Below are positions 23,890 through 37,853 of a stretch of DNA of 37,943 nucleotides, piece after piece. The DNA is from Aurantimonas coralicida DSM 14790. GTDB lineage: Bacteria > Pseudomonadota > Alphaproteobacteria > Rhizobiales > Rhizobiaceae. Below the pieces are notes generated by a model, which was not told the DNA's origin, did no database searches, and saw only the letters and a program-made list of their open reading frames with translations. Both the position numbers and the translations under genes were made by a program. The stretch spans positions 1-37,943 of the forward strand of contig NZ_ATXK01000016.1 in assembly GCF_000421645.1 (NCBI RefSeq), in the 5' to 3' direction. Positions within the stretch are counted from its first letter, which is position 1; the number at the start of each line of letters is the position of its first letter.

Positions 23890-24345
23890 TGCCGGCGCGC
23901 CGGCAAATCGTGCCTGCGTGAAAATCTTGGCTGCCGACGTGAAAGAAGAGCGGGCGAGCGGAATCTTGCGGCATGTGCCGCAACGCTTCCTGATACCGTG
24001 GGTCGGCGACGACCCCAATGTTCGGGCAACGATGTCACGCGATACATAGTTTCCCGCAGGCGACAACGGGTTTCCCGCAGTCTCATTTGAGGGCTGAATC
24101 CATCGTCGCTTCGAGGGAGGTGCCCTCATATTCGCGGCCTGATGGTAGTAGATGGTTTTCCCCGCGTTGTTCCGGACCAGATACGGCGAAAAGCGGACTC
24201 CCTTGGCGCTGAACCCAAAACGGAATTGCTGATCTCTTCAGAGTCGCGGCCATTCGGCTGTTCGAATACCCCGGACCTTTGAAGGCGGCCGTAGCTATAT
24301 GGTTCAAGGAATAATCATCGAAATGGGGTGCGGGGGAGGGTGACC
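23890..24345. other. gene-free stretch with a repeat cluster
   Basis: About 450 bp with no supported gene. It contains repeats C and D and becomes AT-richer toward the HNH gene, whose promoter must lie here. No clear -35/-10 pair stands out. Confidence 0.5.
24038..24080. repeat. IS-end-like repeats, copies C and D
   Basis: TTTCCCGCAG occurs twice (24050-24059 and 24071-24080), the first inside the copy of the repeat seen at 23359. Together with copies A and B they bracket the unknown gene at 23581. Confidence 0.5.
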
Positions 24346-25131
24346 ATGTCAGATCAAAAAGTAGATCAGCTTCAGCGTGCTGGGCGACTGTGGTTGATTT
24401 TAGTGAGGACTGCGAAAGCAGAAACCTCGGTTACATATAAGCAAGCGGCGGACGAAATTGGTATACATTGGAGGCCAATGGCTTATGTGCTAGGTCCGAT
24501 CCAGGACTACTGCCAAAGCGAAGGTTACCCGCGCCTGACTGCTCTCGTACACAACAAGGCGAGCGGTGTTCAGGGCGGCGGCTACCTGGGGGTGCCGGGC
24601 GATCAAACTGATCTGGAAGAAATCTACCAGTTCGATTGGGATAACCTCGAGAACCCATTTTCTATAAGAAAACAGGAAGATCTGAACAAAATTGCATCCG
24701 AGCTACTGCAAGAGCCGAATACGGCGCCGGATAAATGGGTAGCCACTCTTTCTAGGGGAGATGTGCAGCGGGTCTTCCGGAGCGCGATCCTAGAAGCGTA
24801 CGGATATCGCTGTGCTGTTTGCTCGATAGGCTTCACCGAAATTTTGGAAGCCGCTCATATCGTCCCTTGGGCATCTGGTCAGCGCAAGTTGAGAGCAGAC
24901 CCGAGGAACGGCATCTGCCTTTGCGCGAATCATCACCGCCTGTTCGACGCCGGGTGGCTGCAAATTGGGCCTGATAGGATCGTCCGCTTCAGTGATCCCG
25001 ACATGGAGTGCGGTGGATATGAGCCAATCGACGAGGCTGCGGTGATGTCGCTCCATGGCTCGAGACTGAAGCTGCCGGAAAATGAGGATTTATGGCCGGA
25101 CGCCGAACTGCTGCGGGGAAGACAGGCATAG
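24346..25131 (+). CDS. HNH endonuclease, stand-alone restriction-like protein
   Basis: 261 residues. The N-terminal part (about 10-85) looks like a small winged-helix module: 'SVTYKQAADEIGIHWRPM' and 'GPIQDYCQSEGYPRLTALV'. The C-terminal HNH domain has a zinc pair Cys156/Cys159 ('YRCAVCSIGF'), the first catalytic His171 in 'LEAAHIVPWA', Asn188 in 'NGICLCANHH', and His196/197 before 'RLFDAGWLQI'. All nuclease residues are present. The start at 24346 follows GGAGG. Base composition is clearly lower in GC than the fix and mat genes, which suggests transfer. No methylase is next to it, so it may cut modified DNA or act in phage defence. Confidence 0.85.
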   Translation: MSDQKVDQLQRAGRLWLILVRTAKAETSVTYKQAADEIGIHWRPMAYVLGPIQDYCQSEGYPRLTALVHNKASGVQGGGYLGVPGDQTDLEEIYQFDWDNLENPFSIRKQEDLNKIASELLQEPNTAPDKWVATLSRGDVQRVFRSAILEAYGYRCAVCSIGFTEILEAAHIVPWASGQRKLRADPRNGICLCANHHRLFDAGWLQIGPDRIVRFSDPDMECGGYEPIDEAAVMSLHGSRLKLPENEDLWPDAELLRGRQA

Positions 25132-25264: not shown

Positions 25265-27235
25265 TCAACGTCGAAGGTCGTGTTCCCTAGCGAAACTCTC
25301 TAGAGCGGCGCGTCCGAGCACGCGCCTTGCGATCGCTAACGCGGCTAGTGCTTCTATCGCTGGCTTATGCTGCCGAACGATCACGACCGTTTCGGCATAG
25401 AGCCGCGCCAAACGACCATGGACGAGCCTGCTGTCTATCTGAGCGCCATGGACAAGCGACGACCCGAGCCCGAGCGAGCCTTCGGTCCTTGCGACCAGTC
25501 GTGTCGCCTGGGCAAGATCGGAGCTATCCGATCCACCCGCGCCAGCCGAAGCCGCACCCAGGATGACCTCTTCCGCCGCTCGACCGGCCAGCAACGCGAC
25601 GACCTGCCGATGCAGATCCACTGCAAGCCCTTCAAAGCTTTCATCGTCGATCGCGTAGGTGACATGCCCGCCGGAGCCAGCGCCGTCGATCAGCGAGAGA
25701 GCCATGGGGAATTCCCCCATGGCCATTCCGATCACGGCGTGGCCCGCTTCGTGGATCGCAATTCGCCGGATCATTGCTGGCGAGCGCGTATCGGGCGGGA
25801 TTGCAACCGCGATCAAATCATCGCCGCCAAGCGGACGCTTTGCCATGCGCGCCCGACGCCGGGCATCGCGTGCGATGCGCACGACGTCCGCGCCGGAAAT
25901 CGTGCCAGCGAACAGCGCAGCGACGTCCTCAATGACAGCGCTCTCGATCCCGTCACCGAGGTGATGGCGAAAGATGCCTGCAAGCGCTTCCTCGTTGGGC
26001 AGGTCGATCCAGAACCTCCGGTCGAGACGTCCGGACCGGACAAGCGCCGCGTCGAGGTTCGCATCGTCATTGCACGCCGCGATGACCACGACGCCCTCGC
26101 GCCGACCAATCCCGTCCAGACACTCCAGGAGGCAGGTGACGATCGCCGTGAACCAGGCGTCGGCGGACCTGTTAGATCCACCGCGCCCTTGGACCGTGTC
26201 GATCTCGTCGATGAAGACGATCGCCGGCAGGTTCTTCGCGGACGCCTCGAAGACGGCACGAATGGCCTTGGTGACATCCCCCAGATGACCAGACTTGTTG
26301 GACTGCCACTGGGCGTAGCTCGTCGCTGTGAAGTGGACGCCGGCAGAATTCGCGATTGCTTGCGCGAGCAGGGTCTTGCCCGTCCCGGGCGGGCCGACGA
26401 AGAGTGCGCCGGCGTCGACGTCTTCCCAGCCGATCTCGCCCCGCCGATAGGCGGATAGATCCGCAACGAGTTGCAGCGCCCATCGCCCCGCATCACCATA
26501 GCCGTGCAGATCTTCTATGCGGGGACCCGTCGTGATGTTTCTCCCGGGCGTCGCCTGCTCGCTCGCAATCCGCATGCCGCGGATCTCTTCAAGCAGGCGA
26601 AGGCGCTCGGCGGGCGTGCGGCCGCGCCCGCCCGCAAAGTCGAGTTCGAGTGGCCGGTAGACCGAGCCGGTCGTCCCATCAGGCAGATGCGGAGGCTCGT
26701 CCAGGAAGCCGAGCCGAAACTCGAGGTCCTCGCGCGAAGGATCAATGATCTCGATGAAGGCGTCCGAGATAACGCGCAGGATCTCCGGAGCCTCGTGTTG
26801 GGGCGGGAACAGGCAGATGCAGGGTGTCGTCTCGTTCAGCATCTCAGGCAGTCGATGAAGCTCGAACGGATAGCCATGATCGAGCCGGTGCGCCGTCGTC
26901 GCGGTCATCGTCGTGATCGGCAGGTGTGGATCCGGCCATGCCGCTCGGATCGCGGTCTTGATCGCTTGCCTGGCGCTGTCCAGCCAGTGATCCGAAAACA
27001 CGCTCGCGGTGACGAGGAGCGGCCGGTCACCTCGCAAGCGGGTCGTGGCCGCGATGTTCGCATCGACAGCGTCAAACAACATGCGAGCAGACGGACTCAG
27101 GTCCTCGACGATCTCGTATGTGGCTGCGTTGAACAACGCCAAATCTTCCGGGTCCGGTCGGTTTCTCATCGCATGTCTTCCTCGGCGCGCCCGCAGGCGC
27201 AGCCCTTCGAATCCTGTTCTCAGTTCTGTCGACAT
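25265..27235 (-). CDS. soluble FtsH-like AAA+ ATPase with M41 metalloprotease domain
   Basis: 656 residues from ATG 27235 (AGGTGAGA upstream); ATG 27169 after GAGGAA is an alternative. Residues 1-200 are a unique domain with no membrane helix, unlike FtsH. The AAA+ module follows: Walker A GPPGTGKT (281-288), Walker B VFIDEID (340-346), and arginine fingers in 'RSGRLDRRFWIDLP'. The C-terminal peptidase has the zinc motif 'AIHEAGHAVIGMAMGE' (HEAGH 495-499) and the third ligand in 'SDSSDLAQATRLVARTEG' (Asp about 573). ATPase and protease sites both look intact. It overlaps the upstream TnsA-like gene by 16 bp, so the two are translationally coupled. Substrate and trigger are unknown. Confidence 0.88.
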   Translation of the reverse strand: MSTELRTGFEGLRLRARRGRHAMRNRPDPEDLALFNAATYEIVEDLSPSARMLFDAVDANIAATTRLRGDRPLLVTASVFSDHWLDSARQAIKTAIRAAWPDPHLPITTMTATTAHRLDHGYPFELHRLPEMLNETTPCICLFPPQHEAPEILRVISDAFIEIIDPSREDLEFRLGFLDEPPHLPDGTTGSVYRPLELDFAGGRGRTPAERLRLLEEIRGMRIASEQATPGRNITTGPRIEDLHGYGDAGRWALQLVADLSAYRRGEIGWEDVDAGALFVGPPGTGKTLLAQAIANSAGVHFTATSYAQWQSNKSGHLGDVTKAIRAVFEASAKNLPAIVFIDEIDTVQGRGGSNRSADAWFTAIVTCLLECLDGIGRREGVVVIAACNDDANLDAALVRSGRLDRRFWIDLPNEEALAGIFRHHLGDGIESAVIEDVAALFAGTISGADVVRIARDARRRARMAKRPLGGDDLIAVAIPPDTRSPAMIRRIAIHEAGHAVIGMAMGEFPMALSLIDGAGSGGHVTYAIDDESFEGLAVDLHRQVVALLAGRAAEEVILGAASAGAGGSDSSDLAQATRLVARTEGSLGLGSSLVHGAQIDSRLVHGRLARLYAETVVIVRQHKPAIEALAALAIARRVLGRAALESFAREHDLRR

Positions 27236-27870
27236 CGGGATCTCACCTGTGTCTCGGGGCCGATTGGCGTTTCGCGCCACTCCAGGGCGATCACGCGCTT
27301 CAGGGCGAGCGCGACGACGGCACCGATGGGTTCGGGGCTCTCGCGCATGGCGGAGGCGGCCTCGATCAGTGTGATCGGCGACATCTCCTCGAGGTAGGCG
27401 AGCAGGCGCACCCGGTCGCCGAGCGGCACCACGCGTTTGGCGTAGCGCATCATCTCGCGGGCGTTGGCGAGCGCCGGTTCGACGCGGATCTCGTCTTCAG
27501 GAATCGTGCGATAGGTGATCGTCGGGCCGATCGGTGTCAGGCCGGTCTCGCCGGCATCCAGGAAGCTTTCGCGCCCTTCGCTGCCGACGACACGGAAATC
27601 GGGCACGTGATTGACGATCTCACCATCGGCGCTCGCCAACTCGACGACGGCCGGCAGGCACGACCATGCGGTGACAGCCGGATCGAGATCGAGAAGCAAC
27701 GCGAGATCGCGGGCAATCTGCGAGCGGAAGACAGGGCGGCCGATGCAGAAGACCGTACCCACGGGCCCGAAGCGCCGGGCGGAGGAGGCCCGACGACGGG
27801 AAAGCGTGTGCAGGTCCGTAAAATTGCCGGCGTTGGAATTGTCAGAAAGGGAATGATTGCGGGAGGGCAT
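27220..27870 (-). CDS. protein with a degenerate TnsA-like endonuclease fold
   Basis: 216 residues. The middle reads 'RPVFRSQIARDLALLLDLDP', then 'SCLPAVVELASADG' and 'HVPDFRVVGSEGRESFLDAG', which follows the TnsA N-terminal nuclease pattern (ES..ERD....DFDP, then PDF, then EVK). The catalytic Asp of PDF is kept, but the expected Glu of the first motif and the Lys of EVK are replaced (S/Q and G), so cutting is doubtful. A helical C-terminal part follows. The family call is my motif reading. It is the first gene of a two-gene operon with the FtsH-like protein, and a LexA box lies about 134 bp upstream. No strong ribosome binding site precedes 27870. Confidence 0.7.
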   Translation of the reverse strand: MPSRNHSLSDNSNAGNFTDLHTLSRRRASSARRFGPVGTVFCIGRPVFRSQIARDLALLLDLDPAVTAWSCLPAVVELASADGEIVNHVPDFRVVGSEGRESFLDAGETGLTPIGPTITYRTIPEDEIRVEPALANAREMMRYAKRVVPLGDRVRLLAYLEEMSPITLIEAASAMRESPEPIGAVVALALKRVIALEWRETPIGPETQVRSRCRQN

Positions 27871-27925
27871 GTCGTCGGTCCGAAAGAAAACGCGTGGGCG
27901 TTCGCCGGACGACGGGCTGATTACC

Positions 27926-27997
27926 CTATCCGGCGCTGCAGGTCGTCGGGCGCACAGCCACGACGACGGACATCTTCTTTTCGGTGCGCTTGATCAT
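27926..27997 (-). CDS. possible 23-residue leader ORF
   Basis: ATG 27997 to TAG 27926 reads MIKRTEKKMSVVVAVRP and ends TTCSAG. It starts 7 bp inside the LexA box edge, with no Shine-Dalgarno. It could be a leaderless leader peptide or chance. Confidence 0.2.
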   Translation of the reverse strand: MIKRTEKKMSVVVAVRPTTCSAG

Positions 27998-28003
27998 GAA
28001 TGA

Positions 28004-28022
28004 GAACATAGTGCGAACATAG
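28004..28022 (-). promoter_or_regulatory. LexA (SOS) box of the alphaproteobacterial type
   Basis: On the minus strand CTATGTTCGCACTATGTTC is an 8-bp direct repeat with a 3-bp gap and contains GTTC-N7-GTTC, the LexA site of Rhizobiales and Rhodobacter. It lies upstream of the TnsA-like/FtsH-like operon. The match is seen; SOS control is inferred. Confidence 0.75.
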
Positions 28023-34587: not shown

Positions 34588-35388
34588 TCAGACCTCAATG
34601 ATTTGGTTCGGATCGAACCCGGATGCCTCACCGGCGCGAACCTGCGGGTTCGCGACGATCCGCGTATCACCGAGCGCATAGTCGCGCACGGTATGGATGT
34701 GTCCGTGGATCCACGCGGCTGGACGCCAACCCCTGATCTTAGGCTCAAGGTCCGAGGCATAGCAGTGGTTTAGGCGGTCACCGGGCAACGCCAGCGATCG
34801 CGGACTGGGCGCGTGATGCGTAACGACGATCGTGCGCCGAGGATCGACGCCGTCGGCGAATGCGTCCGCGAGGAAGCGCCGCGTGCGGCGATGCCATGCG
34901 AGCGTGTCGTCAGGGGTGATCCGCCGCGACCGCCGTGTAGACGAGGCACGATGGATGAATTGATAGTCGTTCATCCACCGGTTCGCCTCGGCGAACGCAT
35001 GGCGCCGGCTGGCATGCAGACGCGAATGCAGATCGGTCCAGAGCGTCGCGCCGAGGATCGTCAAACCGCCTATCGTCGCGACTTCGTCGGACAGCAGGGT
35101 GATCCCGAGCCGGGCTGCCAGATCGCGACCGGCCGCAAGCTCGTCTTCGATCGTGAAGCCGAACGCAGAGCCGTCTCGGTACCAGTCGTGATTTCCAGGG
35201 ACGTAGATCGTCGGCACCCCAGCGAAGCGCTCGCCAAGCCATGCGACCGACGATGTCAGCCGGCCGGCACAGTCGCCGGCGACGATCGCGATGTCGAACG
35301 GTGTGCTGATTTCGGTCGCCGGGTCAAAGGGGCGGCCGCCATCGTTCTGATGAAGATCCGATAGGATCAGAAGGCGCGGATTATCCAT
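34588..35388 (-). CDS. calcineurin-like metallophosphoesterase
   Basis: 266 residues from ATG 35388 (GAGG about 10 nt upstream; a longer frame to 35457 adds a Phe-rich stretch). The dimetal motifs are complete: 'LLILSDLHQND' (D.H), 'DIAIVAGDCAG' (GD), 'IYVPGNHDWYRDG' (GNHD), 'TIVVTHHAPSP' (H), and 'WIHGHIHTVRDYALGDTRIV' (GH.H). It hydrolyses phosphoester bonds in the cytoplasm; cyclic nucleotide, nucleotide or nucleic acid substrates are all possible. No second domain is present. It lies between the catabolic operon and the HNH operon and may belong to the accessory region. Confidence 0.92.
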   Translation of the reverse strand: MDNPRLLILSDLHQNDGGRPFDPATEISTPFDIAIVAGDCAGRLTSSVAWLGERFAGVPTIYVPGNHDWYRDGSAFGFTIEDELAAGRDLAARLGITLLSDEVATIGGLTILGATLWTDLHSRLHASRRHAFAEANRWMNDYQFIHRASSTRRSRRITPDDTLAWHRRTRRFLADAFADGVDPRRTIVVTHHAPSPRSLALPGDRLNHCYASDLEPKIRGWRPAAWIHGHIHTVRDYALGDTRIVANPQVRAGEASGFDPNQIIEV

Positions 35389-35584
35389 GGCGCCGTACCT
35401 CGAGATGGACTGGAAGCGAACGTCCAGAAAGAAGAAAGCTGCCCGATGTTCGGACACGTGATGACGATCGCCAGCAGCGTTAGCGCTGCGGCGTTTCCTT
35501 CATCACGACGGGCTTTCTGGTCTCGTAGGTCATGTACTCGAGATAGCTCCAATTTCGCTAATAGTCGAGTGGGGCCGTAAGCGG

Positions 35585-36798: not shown

Positions 36799-37853
36799 GT
36801 ATGGCGGTCGACACCGGACCTCTTGCCGGCGCCTTCCGCGACATGACGGCGTCCTACAAGGCATTCTGGTTCCTGTCGCTCATCGAGGCCGTGCGGGACA
36901 GGGCAGGCCGGGCCTCGATCGATCTGTTCGTGCCGTTCGACGAGATGGCAGGGCGGATGCTCGACATGGCGTTCTGGCCGGCCGTCACCTACCGCCTGTC
37001 GTTCGGACCGCAGGATCAGATCCATCGGAAGCTCGCCGGCCTGCGCGACGACGACGGGAATGCGGTGAAGCCGACCTTCGATCGCGAGCGCGGGAAAGGC
37101 ATCCTTCGCTACGTTCCGGACAAGTTCCTTGAGCCCTGGCTGAAGGCGGCCGGCCGATCGGGGCGCGAGGCTGCGCTCGAACTCTTCGCGACGCCGGGTG
37201 CCGTGCCCTATCGAATCGACAAGGTGGGGATCGAGATCGAACGTCATTGGTTCGACCATATCGCCGACAATCTCGGCGTCATGCGCGCCCTCGGCGAGCG
37301 TGAACTCATCCGGTTCCTGCAGTCGCGCAATCCGACTGTGCCTGGCATCCCCGAGAAGATCGGCCCGCCCGACCGCGGTGGTGGCCTCGGGTACAAGCGG
37401 AAGTTCTGGATCTCGACGCTCGAGAACGCGGATCCAGAGTGCTTCTACACGGGGCGGGCGCTCCAAGGACGGGAGTTCTCGCTCGACCATTTCGTACCGT
37501 GGTCGTTCGTCGCTCACGACCGGATCTGGAACCTCGTGCCGATGGCGACGTCACTCAACGCCAGTAAGGGCGTCCGACTGCCCAACATCGGTCTCGTTGA
37601 GAGGATGGGTGGATTCCAGCGCGAAACGCAACATGCTCATGAGAAGCGGATTCGGACGTCCTTGCCAAGTTCCTGGAGGAGGCACTGGAAAGGGGTGATG
37701 AAGCCGAGGCATTTGCGCGGCGTGGTGTTGAGGCTGACAATGGCGTCCTGGAGATCGGCTTCGGACAGGGTGTCGAGATCGAGCCATCTGGGCAGCCATC
37801 GTCGCAATCGTCCGTTGGCGTTTTCGACGCCTCCCTTCTGCCAGGAAGCGTAG
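36795..37853 (+). pseudogene. second HNH endonuclease, truncated by an IS30-family insertion
   Basis: Starts at GTG 36795 (GTGA overlap) or ATG 36801. Native sequence runs to about 37607; the remaining codons to 37853 come from the insertion element read on its reverse strand. The N-terminal domain is 'MTASYKAFWFLSLIEAVRDR' and 'AFWPAVTYRLSFGPQDQIHR'. The nuclease part is 'ECFYTGRALQGREFSLDHFV' then 'PWSFVAHDRIWNLVPMATSL' and 'NASKG', with Asp-His, Asn and Asn as the HNH residues. The HNH core is complete, so the hybrid protein might still cut, but the native C-terminus is lost. Confidence 0.8.

Follow-up and report, generated by a model that had tools for sequence, protein, structure and literature searches.

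What does a protein with the fold of TnsA, a component of Tn7-like transposons, do in an operon with an FtsH-like protease, behind a LexA-type box? The question is raised by two genes, termed P1 and P2, on contig NZ_ATXK01000016.1 of Aurantimonas coralicida DSM 14790 (assembly GCF_000421645.1). Positions 1–37,943 of this contig, a stretch of 37,943 nucleotides (nt), are referred to below as the window. The pair had been noted in a preliminary description made from the sequence alone. On the reading favoured here, which is tentative as regards purpose, P1 and P2 form an adaptor-protease module that is repressed by LexA and resides in mobile and defence islands. The locus is laid out as follows.

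27220–27870, minus strand: P1, a TnsA homologue of 216 amino acids (open reading frame list, profile and AlphaFold model)
25265–27235, minus strand: P2, a soluble AAA+ ATPase with an M41 zinc peptidase, 656 amino acids (open reading frame from ATG, Pfam)
28004–28018, minus strand: LexA-type box GTTC-N7-GTTC, GTTCGCACTATGTTC (sequence; starts 148 nt before the P1 start codon)

P1 is upstream and P2 downstream on the same strand. The two genes overlap, as first described, by 16 nt counted from the P2 ATG at position 27235; an alternative GTG start is present at position 27280.

The fold of P1 is that of TnsA. A profile of 26 aligned P1 members, compared by hhalign with TnsA of linked Tn7-like elements, matches over 173 columns (probability 97.3, E = 1.9e-11). 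The AlphaFold model of P1 (predicted local distance difference test score, pLDDT, of 89) displays a restriction-endonuclease-like N domain and a winged-helix-like C domain, and a PDB fold search with this model gives TnsA chains first (9bw1_M, E = 3.1e-7, then 1t0f and 1f1z, about 1e-3). Thus both domains of TnsA are found in P1, by profile and by model. The TnsA-like fold proposed in the preliminary description, which had offered a match to a nuclease fold as a test of its reading, is borne out. That description had also suggested a hidden Markov model search and structure prediction of the 216-residue protein. Here the structure gave the TnsA fold, and the model search gave a sub-threshold match to NCBIfam TnsA-like NF033179 (27.5 bits, cut-off 110, E = 1.9e-6), which is matched by 19 of the 26 aligned P1 proteins, the window's included. 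No Pfam family is found for the window P1 in a single-sequence search, matches of the P1 members to Pfam are at chance level only (in 3/26), and a plain sequence search yields no PDB relative. Single-sequence searches are therefore nearly blind for P1, and its identity as a TnsA homologue came from profile-profile and fold comparison.

TnsA is taken here to have a catalytic Glu-Asp-Lys triad, and the Glu aligned with Ala53 of P1 is assumed to be its catalytic Glu. Two P1 residues mark the comparison.

27712–27714, minus strand: Ala53 of P1, at the place of the TnsA catalytic Glu (no Glu in 26/26)
27598–27600, minus strand: Asp91 of P1, the kept Asp of the PDF motif (invariant in 26/26)

At the Glu position the 26 aligned members have Ala (21), Val (4) or Thr (1). 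None has Lys at the Lys position, where 24 members show another residue (Arg in a single case) and 2 a gap. The triad is thus reduced to its Asp, and two of its three residues are replaced, as had been read from the single sequence. The absence of Glu and Lys from every member suggests that P1 lost its chemistry as a family and is no recent wreck. On the evidence of this alignment, P1 is as a whole family a TnsA homologue predicted to be catalytically dead. It may act as a DNA-binding sensor, judging by its fold.

P2 displays Pfam matches to AAA (2.8e-28) and Peptidase_M41 (1.1e-11), and its motifs are located as follows.

26372–26395, minus strand: Walker A of P2, GPPGTGKT, residues 281–288 (Lys287 and Thr288 invariant in 25/25)
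26198–26218, minus strand: Walker B of P2, VFIDEID, residues 340–346 (Asp343 and Glu344 invariant in 25/25)
25739–25753, minus strand: zinc site of P2, HEAGH, residues 495–499 (His495, Glu496 and His499 invariant in 25/25)
25517–25519, minus strand: Asp573 of P2, likely third zinc ligand (invariant in 25/25)

The role of Asp573 is presumed by analogy with FtsH. In the alignment of 25 P2 sequences a later Asn and two Arg are invariant as well, and HExxH is present in all 97 P2 relatives. The AAA+ and M41 catalytic motifs of FtsH are therefore all found in P2, and the earlier statement that the ATPase and zinc protease motifs are intact holds for the family. The P2 model (pLDDT 84.5) has its nearest structures in the FtsH family. 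What the window P2 lacks is the N-terminal membrane anchor of FtsH: its maximum hydropathy (19-residue windows, N-terminal 250 residues) is 0.72, against 2.53 for the N-terminal 220 residues of the genome's own FtsH, in agreement with the preliminary description. A hydropathy stretch of at least 1.6 precedes Walker A in 20 of 97 P2 relatives, and the absence of an anchor thus applies to the window P2 sequence, not to all relatives.

Two other assignments of P2 were considered and dropped. It is not a housekeeping FtsH copy, since its NCBIfam FtsH score is 155 bits against a cut-off of 600 and it has no anchor. It is also not TnsC-like, as it consists of an FtsH-type AAA domain and a peptidase, not TniB/AAA_22.

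The third element is the box. GTTC-N7-GTTC is the motif printed for alphaproteobacteria (PMC3323433). The window has 2 such sites where 1.06 are expected by chance, so that the box in the window is by itself no evidence; the evidence is its conservation across loci. Of 31 P1 loci, that of the window being one, 25 have an exact box ahead of P1; shuffles of these regions give a mean of 0.175 and a maximum of 2. The P1 loci without an exact box are L011, L013, L015, L032, L033 and L035; a site with a single mismatch is seen in L011 and in L013, and the loci L032 and L033 are near copies. The box also precedes P1 in 7/9 plasmid loci and in 3/4 named genomes, sets that come from other searches and whose species may overlap with the main loci. 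As a positive control, one box (GAAC-N7-GAAC on the gene strand) is present upstream of lexA in 8/8 genomes. The spacer differs between boxes, which argues against simple recent copying. P1 thus has a conserved LexA operator, as expected of a member of the LexA regulon, and the box pointed out in the preliminary description gains its meaning from this conservation. Induction of P1-P2 by DNA damage through the SOS response would be in keeping with the operator sequence.

The second exact GTTC-N7-GTTC site (window 37113–37127, plus strand) is inside a predicted coding sequence and is probably due to chance.

Conservation of the two genes together had been named as a further test of the preliminary description, and the pair passes it. 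Within the family to which the window's genome belongs, 32 of 247 genomes, from 26 of 109 genera, carry P1. Of 30 fetched P1 loci, counting that of the window, 23 have P2 downstream in the same direction, six of them with a 4-nt overlap. P1 matches are also present on Rhizobium and Sinorhizobium plasmids. At the order level, P1-profile matches occur in 13/297 genomes, most of the weaker ones covering the C-terminal part only. A class-level scan of 289 genomes, with no more than 4 candidates per genome scored, gives P2-type scores above 390 bits in 11, one of which is the genome of the window; matches below 300 bits are FtsH, as judged by the score gap. A first genome-contig scan with P2 alone as query gave no relative, and viral contigs gave no P1 relative with the window protein as the only query, which reaches close relatives only.

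Several copies show decay or rearrangement. The P2 frame is broken in L058. An apparent P1-P2 fusion at L059:8879-9982 was rejected as a decayed remnant, in which the reading frame of P1 continues into the beginning of P2 and the remainder of P2 is missing. L043 has a relic of the P2 C-terminus and a phosphoesterase near genes that by eye look like those of the IS21 type. In L201, on a Rhizobium plasmid, P1 stands beside two Ku genes, an IS3 transposase is found where P2 is expected, and there is no box upstream.

P2 does not always occur with P1. The genome of the window has four sister P2 genes (L039, L040, L041 and L042), two of them 73–74% identical, with a different operon partner, a protein of 354–368 residues with a PD...D-x-K-like motif (termed PD-type). 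Three of these sister operons have a small gene in between, and two have a calcineurin-like phosphoesterase behind. The (D/E)-x-K is kept in 18 of 20 PD-type partners; three of them were searched against Pfam and gave no match above cut-off. A comparison of the PD-type partner with the P1 and TnsA profiles gives no match (probability 0.2 and 1.4), and homology between them is therefore not shown. In L104, L110, L166 and L170, P2 is followed by an RNase_T-type (DEDDh-type) exonuclease of 313–458 residues, L104 and L110 being close to TnsB. With partners labelled on all six-frame open reading frames, the 97 P2 loci comprise 26 with P1, 18 with a PD-type partner, 4 with an exonuclease and 49 with none. 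P2 thus belongs to a partner-changing family, in which a dead TnsA can be replaced by an exonuclease or by a PD-(D/E)XK-like protein.

The tree of the 97 P2 sequences shows how often the partner changes. The P1 label requires 14 changes (9 of these are forced by well-supported branches), or 13 after label correction. The window P2 clusters with PD-type L039 and L040 of its own genome and with L128 of genome G137. The window P1 is 70% identical to the P1 of genome G022, but the G022 P2 is only about 51% identical to the window P2. This disagreement between P1 and P2 relationships suggests that P1 together with its box resembles a cassette swapped before different P2 genes. The box follows the same division: it is present in 20/26 P1-type and 0/18 PD-type operons (Fisher test, which ignores relatedness, 1.6e-7). 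The PD-type count refers to boxes read as GTTC in the stretch that begins 350 nt ahead of the PD gene and extends to P2; one GAAC-oriented match occurs, in L169. P2 loci without a recognised partner have a box in 5/49.

A calcineurin-like metallophosphoesterase is also encoded in the window (34588–35457, minus strand), where it stands alone about 7 kb away from the pair. Its close relatives are directly downstream of P2 in the sister operons L039 and L040, and metallophosphoesterases follow P2 in several P1-P2 plasmid loci as well.

In many loci tnsA-tnsB-tnsC-tniQ genes are near P1-P2, and representatives were confirmed by their Mu-transpos_C, TniB and TniQ domains. A strong TnsB, defined as a match of at least 330 bits (nearly all are full length), is found in 27 of 247 genomes. 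P1 is present in 22 of these 27 and in 10 of the other 220, a co-occurrence biased upward by a TnsB profile that was built from P1-linked TnsB. Of 38 P1 places, 11 have TnsB at a distance of 10 kb or less (expected, about 0.17), and 16 have it within 40 kb; P1 is thus physically linked to tnsABC. Among the P2 loci, TnsB is in the fetched stretch of 10/26 P1-type, 0/18 PD-type, 2/4 exonuclease-type and 3/49 other loci (P1-type against the rest, Fisher 0.0005). The closest arrangement, in which tnsA stands no more than 0.9 kb behind P2 and in the same direction, is displayed by 5 of the 26 P1-type loci (L044, L046, L047, L054 and L114) and by 2/4 named loci, L205 (Microvirga aerilata) and L206 (Rhizobium sp. 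CF080). Between P2 and tnsA there is no called gene in L046, L054, L114 and L205, an open reading frame of 70–72 residues in L047 and L206, and an opposite-strand open reading frame in L044. A search near P1-P2 in five loci for transposon ends gave no convincing TnsB-site repeats.

Known defence genes are also found in the same stretches. PADLOC names PglZ and BrxL 9–14 kb upstream of P1 in G137 (look-alike genes are seen by eye at G022), GajA and GajB adjoining P1 in L114, Avs3a adjoining P1 in L055, and a PDC-S37/Hhe helicase in L060. On the plasmid pRL1 it names HamA, at about 7 kb from P1, and on pRapFH23a IetA together with IetS, at about 2 kb. The record annotation near P1 copies includes KwaB-like, CBASS with HORMA, and Lit proteins. 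The remaining fetched plasmid regions have Ku genes, no annotation, or no defence name save an N-6 methylase. As the ten PADLOC-tested proteins were chosen by eye, this is no enrichment test. In a scan of 115 neighbours, summarised by family, cytosine methylases lead with 2/56 and 4/59 proteins.

In the window itself an HNH endonuclease (24328–25131, plus strand) is convergent with P2. It has a sub-threshold match to a phosphorothioated-DNA-binding restriction endonuclease (64 bits, cut-off 180).

How might the two proteins work? DNA damage, including the donor break from cut-and-paste Tn7 transposition, would lift LexA, and P1 and P2 would be made together. P1, TnsA-shaped and non-cutting, would probably recognise DNA or a DNA-bound complex and hand it to P2, presumably by contact between the two. 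P2, a cytosolic and presumably hexameric FtsH-like machine, would unfold and degrade the substrate. The favoured substrate would be the TnsB/TnsC of a Tn7-like transposition complex, be it resident or incoming. Transposition complexes are rated the likeliest substrate because P1 resembles TnsA and P2 is the direct neighbour of tnsA in several loci; the mechanism with this target is put forward tentatively, at somewhat less than an even chance. There is a precedent in ClpX, a host housekeeping protein without a protease domain of its own, which acts on the Mu transposition complex (MuA); P2 is proposed to do likewise for a Tn7-like element. The donor break is left by Tn7 excision (PMC11406308). 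For CAST (CRISPR-associated transposon) complexes, PMC12326709 describes selection-phage propagation with evolved PseCAST TnsB that is about 200-fold lower in clpX-deleted E. coli, and integration by wild-type TnsB in human cells that rises 4.0-fold on average with ClpX. The hypothesis put forward in that paper is that ClpX takes the post-transposition complex apart. The mode of action proposed here for P2 is likewise that of an AAA+ unfoldase directed at a transposition complex; P2 differs from ClpX in being mobile, in being SOS-linked and in carrying a peptidase.

A more specific form of this proposal is an SOS-triggered anti-transpososome machine, in which P1 is a TnsA decoy that would dock on end-bound TnsB/TnsC and deliver both to the soluble protease. 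Transposition would then be ended or aborted once the donor break is sensed, and competing Tn7-like elements would be excluded. This form is considered unlikely, though within reason.

A number of results weigh against a LexA-controlled module directed at transposition complexes. The tnsA genes used as a negative control have no box in either orientation (0/22). A box stands directly before P2 with no P1 on six-frame open reading frames in L126, L127, L133, L134, L185 and L209, where P1 loss is possible. Seven of the 30 P1 loci have no P2 match in the short locus, and in wider stretches two of these seven have P2 remnants and five have none. A strong TnsB is missing from 10/32 P1 genomes; the window's 38-kb contig has no TnsB, the genome having one on another contig. 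To the upward bias of the co-occurrence is added the relatedness that both Fisher tests ignore: independent pairs on the P2 tree give, for the box with P1, 4.3 for and 0 against in 8 pairs (p 0.06–0.38, not significant), and for P1 with TnsB 2.9 for and 0.7 against (median p 0.5, not significant). Over 20 pairs of P2 and TnsB, a few of which are 18–38 kb apart or have no P1, the distances of the two proteins are not correlated (Mantel r 0.115, p 0.196), and this suggests that the module is exchanged between elements; the co-inheritance with the transposase expected of a Tn7 core component is not found. Finally, the island context also fits defence cargo, though it does not prove that reading.

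Defence is accordingly the alternative to be weighed most closely. P1-P2 would here be an SOS-induced anti-phage or anti-plasmid system, carried as cargo on Tn7-like transposons and plasmids, in which the dead TnsA would spot the DNA or the replication complexes of an invader and P2 would destroy key proteins, by direct interference or, if the target is the host's, by suicide. The PADLOC-named genes and the KwaB-like, CBASS, HORMA and Lit proteins in the same stretches fit this, as do the exchange of the module between elements, the patchy distribution (32/247 genomes) and the match of the P2 ATPase domain to IetA models in 25/25. However, the PADLOC-tested neighbours were picked by eye and the wider scan is led by cytosine methylases in small numbers only, P1 was not met in viral contigs within the reach of the single-protein query, and tnsA as a direct neighbour in seven loci exceeds what cargo needs. 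To our knowledge SOS control is also unusual for a first-line defence. Defence is rated as only slightly less probable than the mechanism directed at transposition complexes.

A further alternative is a repair protease, which would share its SOS control with other repair genes. P1 would then sense broken or crosslinked DNA and P2 digest trapped proteins, in the manner of SPRTN/Wss1. The SOS box, an AAA+ zinc protease with a DNA-enzyme-like partner, the PD-(D/E)XK-like proteins and DEDDh-type exonucleases that accompany sister P2 genes, and P1 beside two Ku genes on one plasmid agree with this. A restriction to 32/247 genomes, a location on islands and plasmids, and repeated changes of partner are unlike core repair, and the explanation is held to be improbable. 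The same exchange of copies, together with their decay, the several P2-type copies in the genome of the window and the toxin-antitoxin-like genes seen nearby by eye, could instead indicate a remnant or a toxin-antitoxin-like module kept selfishly by islands, with no specific DNA-bound substrate. Retention of the P2 catalytic residues in 25/25 and conservation of the LexA box argue for a selected function, and this last explanation appears very improbable.

Comparison with known systems leaves the combination distinct. P1 shares the full-length profile and fold with TnsA of Tn7-like transposons (1f1z, 1t0f, 9bw1) and is encoded near TnsA-TnsB-TnsC-TniQ in many loci, but it is without the catalytic Glu and Lys in 26/26, its operon partner is a protease and not TnsB, and it has its own LexA box, which tnsA (0/22) has not. 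P2 shares with FtsH and the M41 proteases the AAA+ and M41 domains, the intact zinc and ATP sites and the best structural matches; it differs from FtsH in its N-terminal region of about 230 residues, in the missing anchor of the window protein and in its score (155 against 600 bits). IetAS resembles the pair in coupling an AAA+ ATPase to a protease, and the P2 ATPase domain matches IetA models. The match is confined to the AAA domain (77.8 bits, where a true IetA scores 225.6 bits with the same model), and the P2 protease is an M41 peptidase in the same chain, with a TnsA-like partner and an SOS box. No subtilisin-like IetS is found in the pair by Pfam, and P1 has no PADLOC match.

The preliminary description knew of no named system with this pair, and a literature search, with most subscription-journal papers outside it, likewise found no paper on the pair, on an M41 anti-phage AAA protein or on an inactive TnsA. 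By word search, none of the terms protease, FtsH and SOS occurs in the main text of PMC8649781, which surveys Tn7 cargo. The component families are known; the combination, the LexA box and the partner exchange are undescribed as far as these searches show. The observation itself is confirmed and its interpretation partly supported, the roles suggested at the time (abortive infection, action against plasmids or control of repair) being conjectural; partner exchange of P2, linkage to Tn7-like transposons and nearby defence genes were beyond what a single sequence could reveal.

If the proposed mechanism is true, bacteria and Tn7-like transposons have a machine of their own for destroying proteins, which responds to DNA damage and is steered by a transposase subunit that no longer cuts. 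If the anti-transpososome form holds, P1 would be a protease adaptor that descends from a transposase subunit, the first such case known to us, and the pair would be part of a wider protease family with changing nuclease-like partners. Disassembly of Tn7-like transposition complexes matters for genome-insertion tools, where ClpX has served as an added helper (PMC12326709). For the alphaproteobacteria, the SOS response would gain an AAA+ protease with exchangeable nuclease-like partners, serving as defence or as transposition control.

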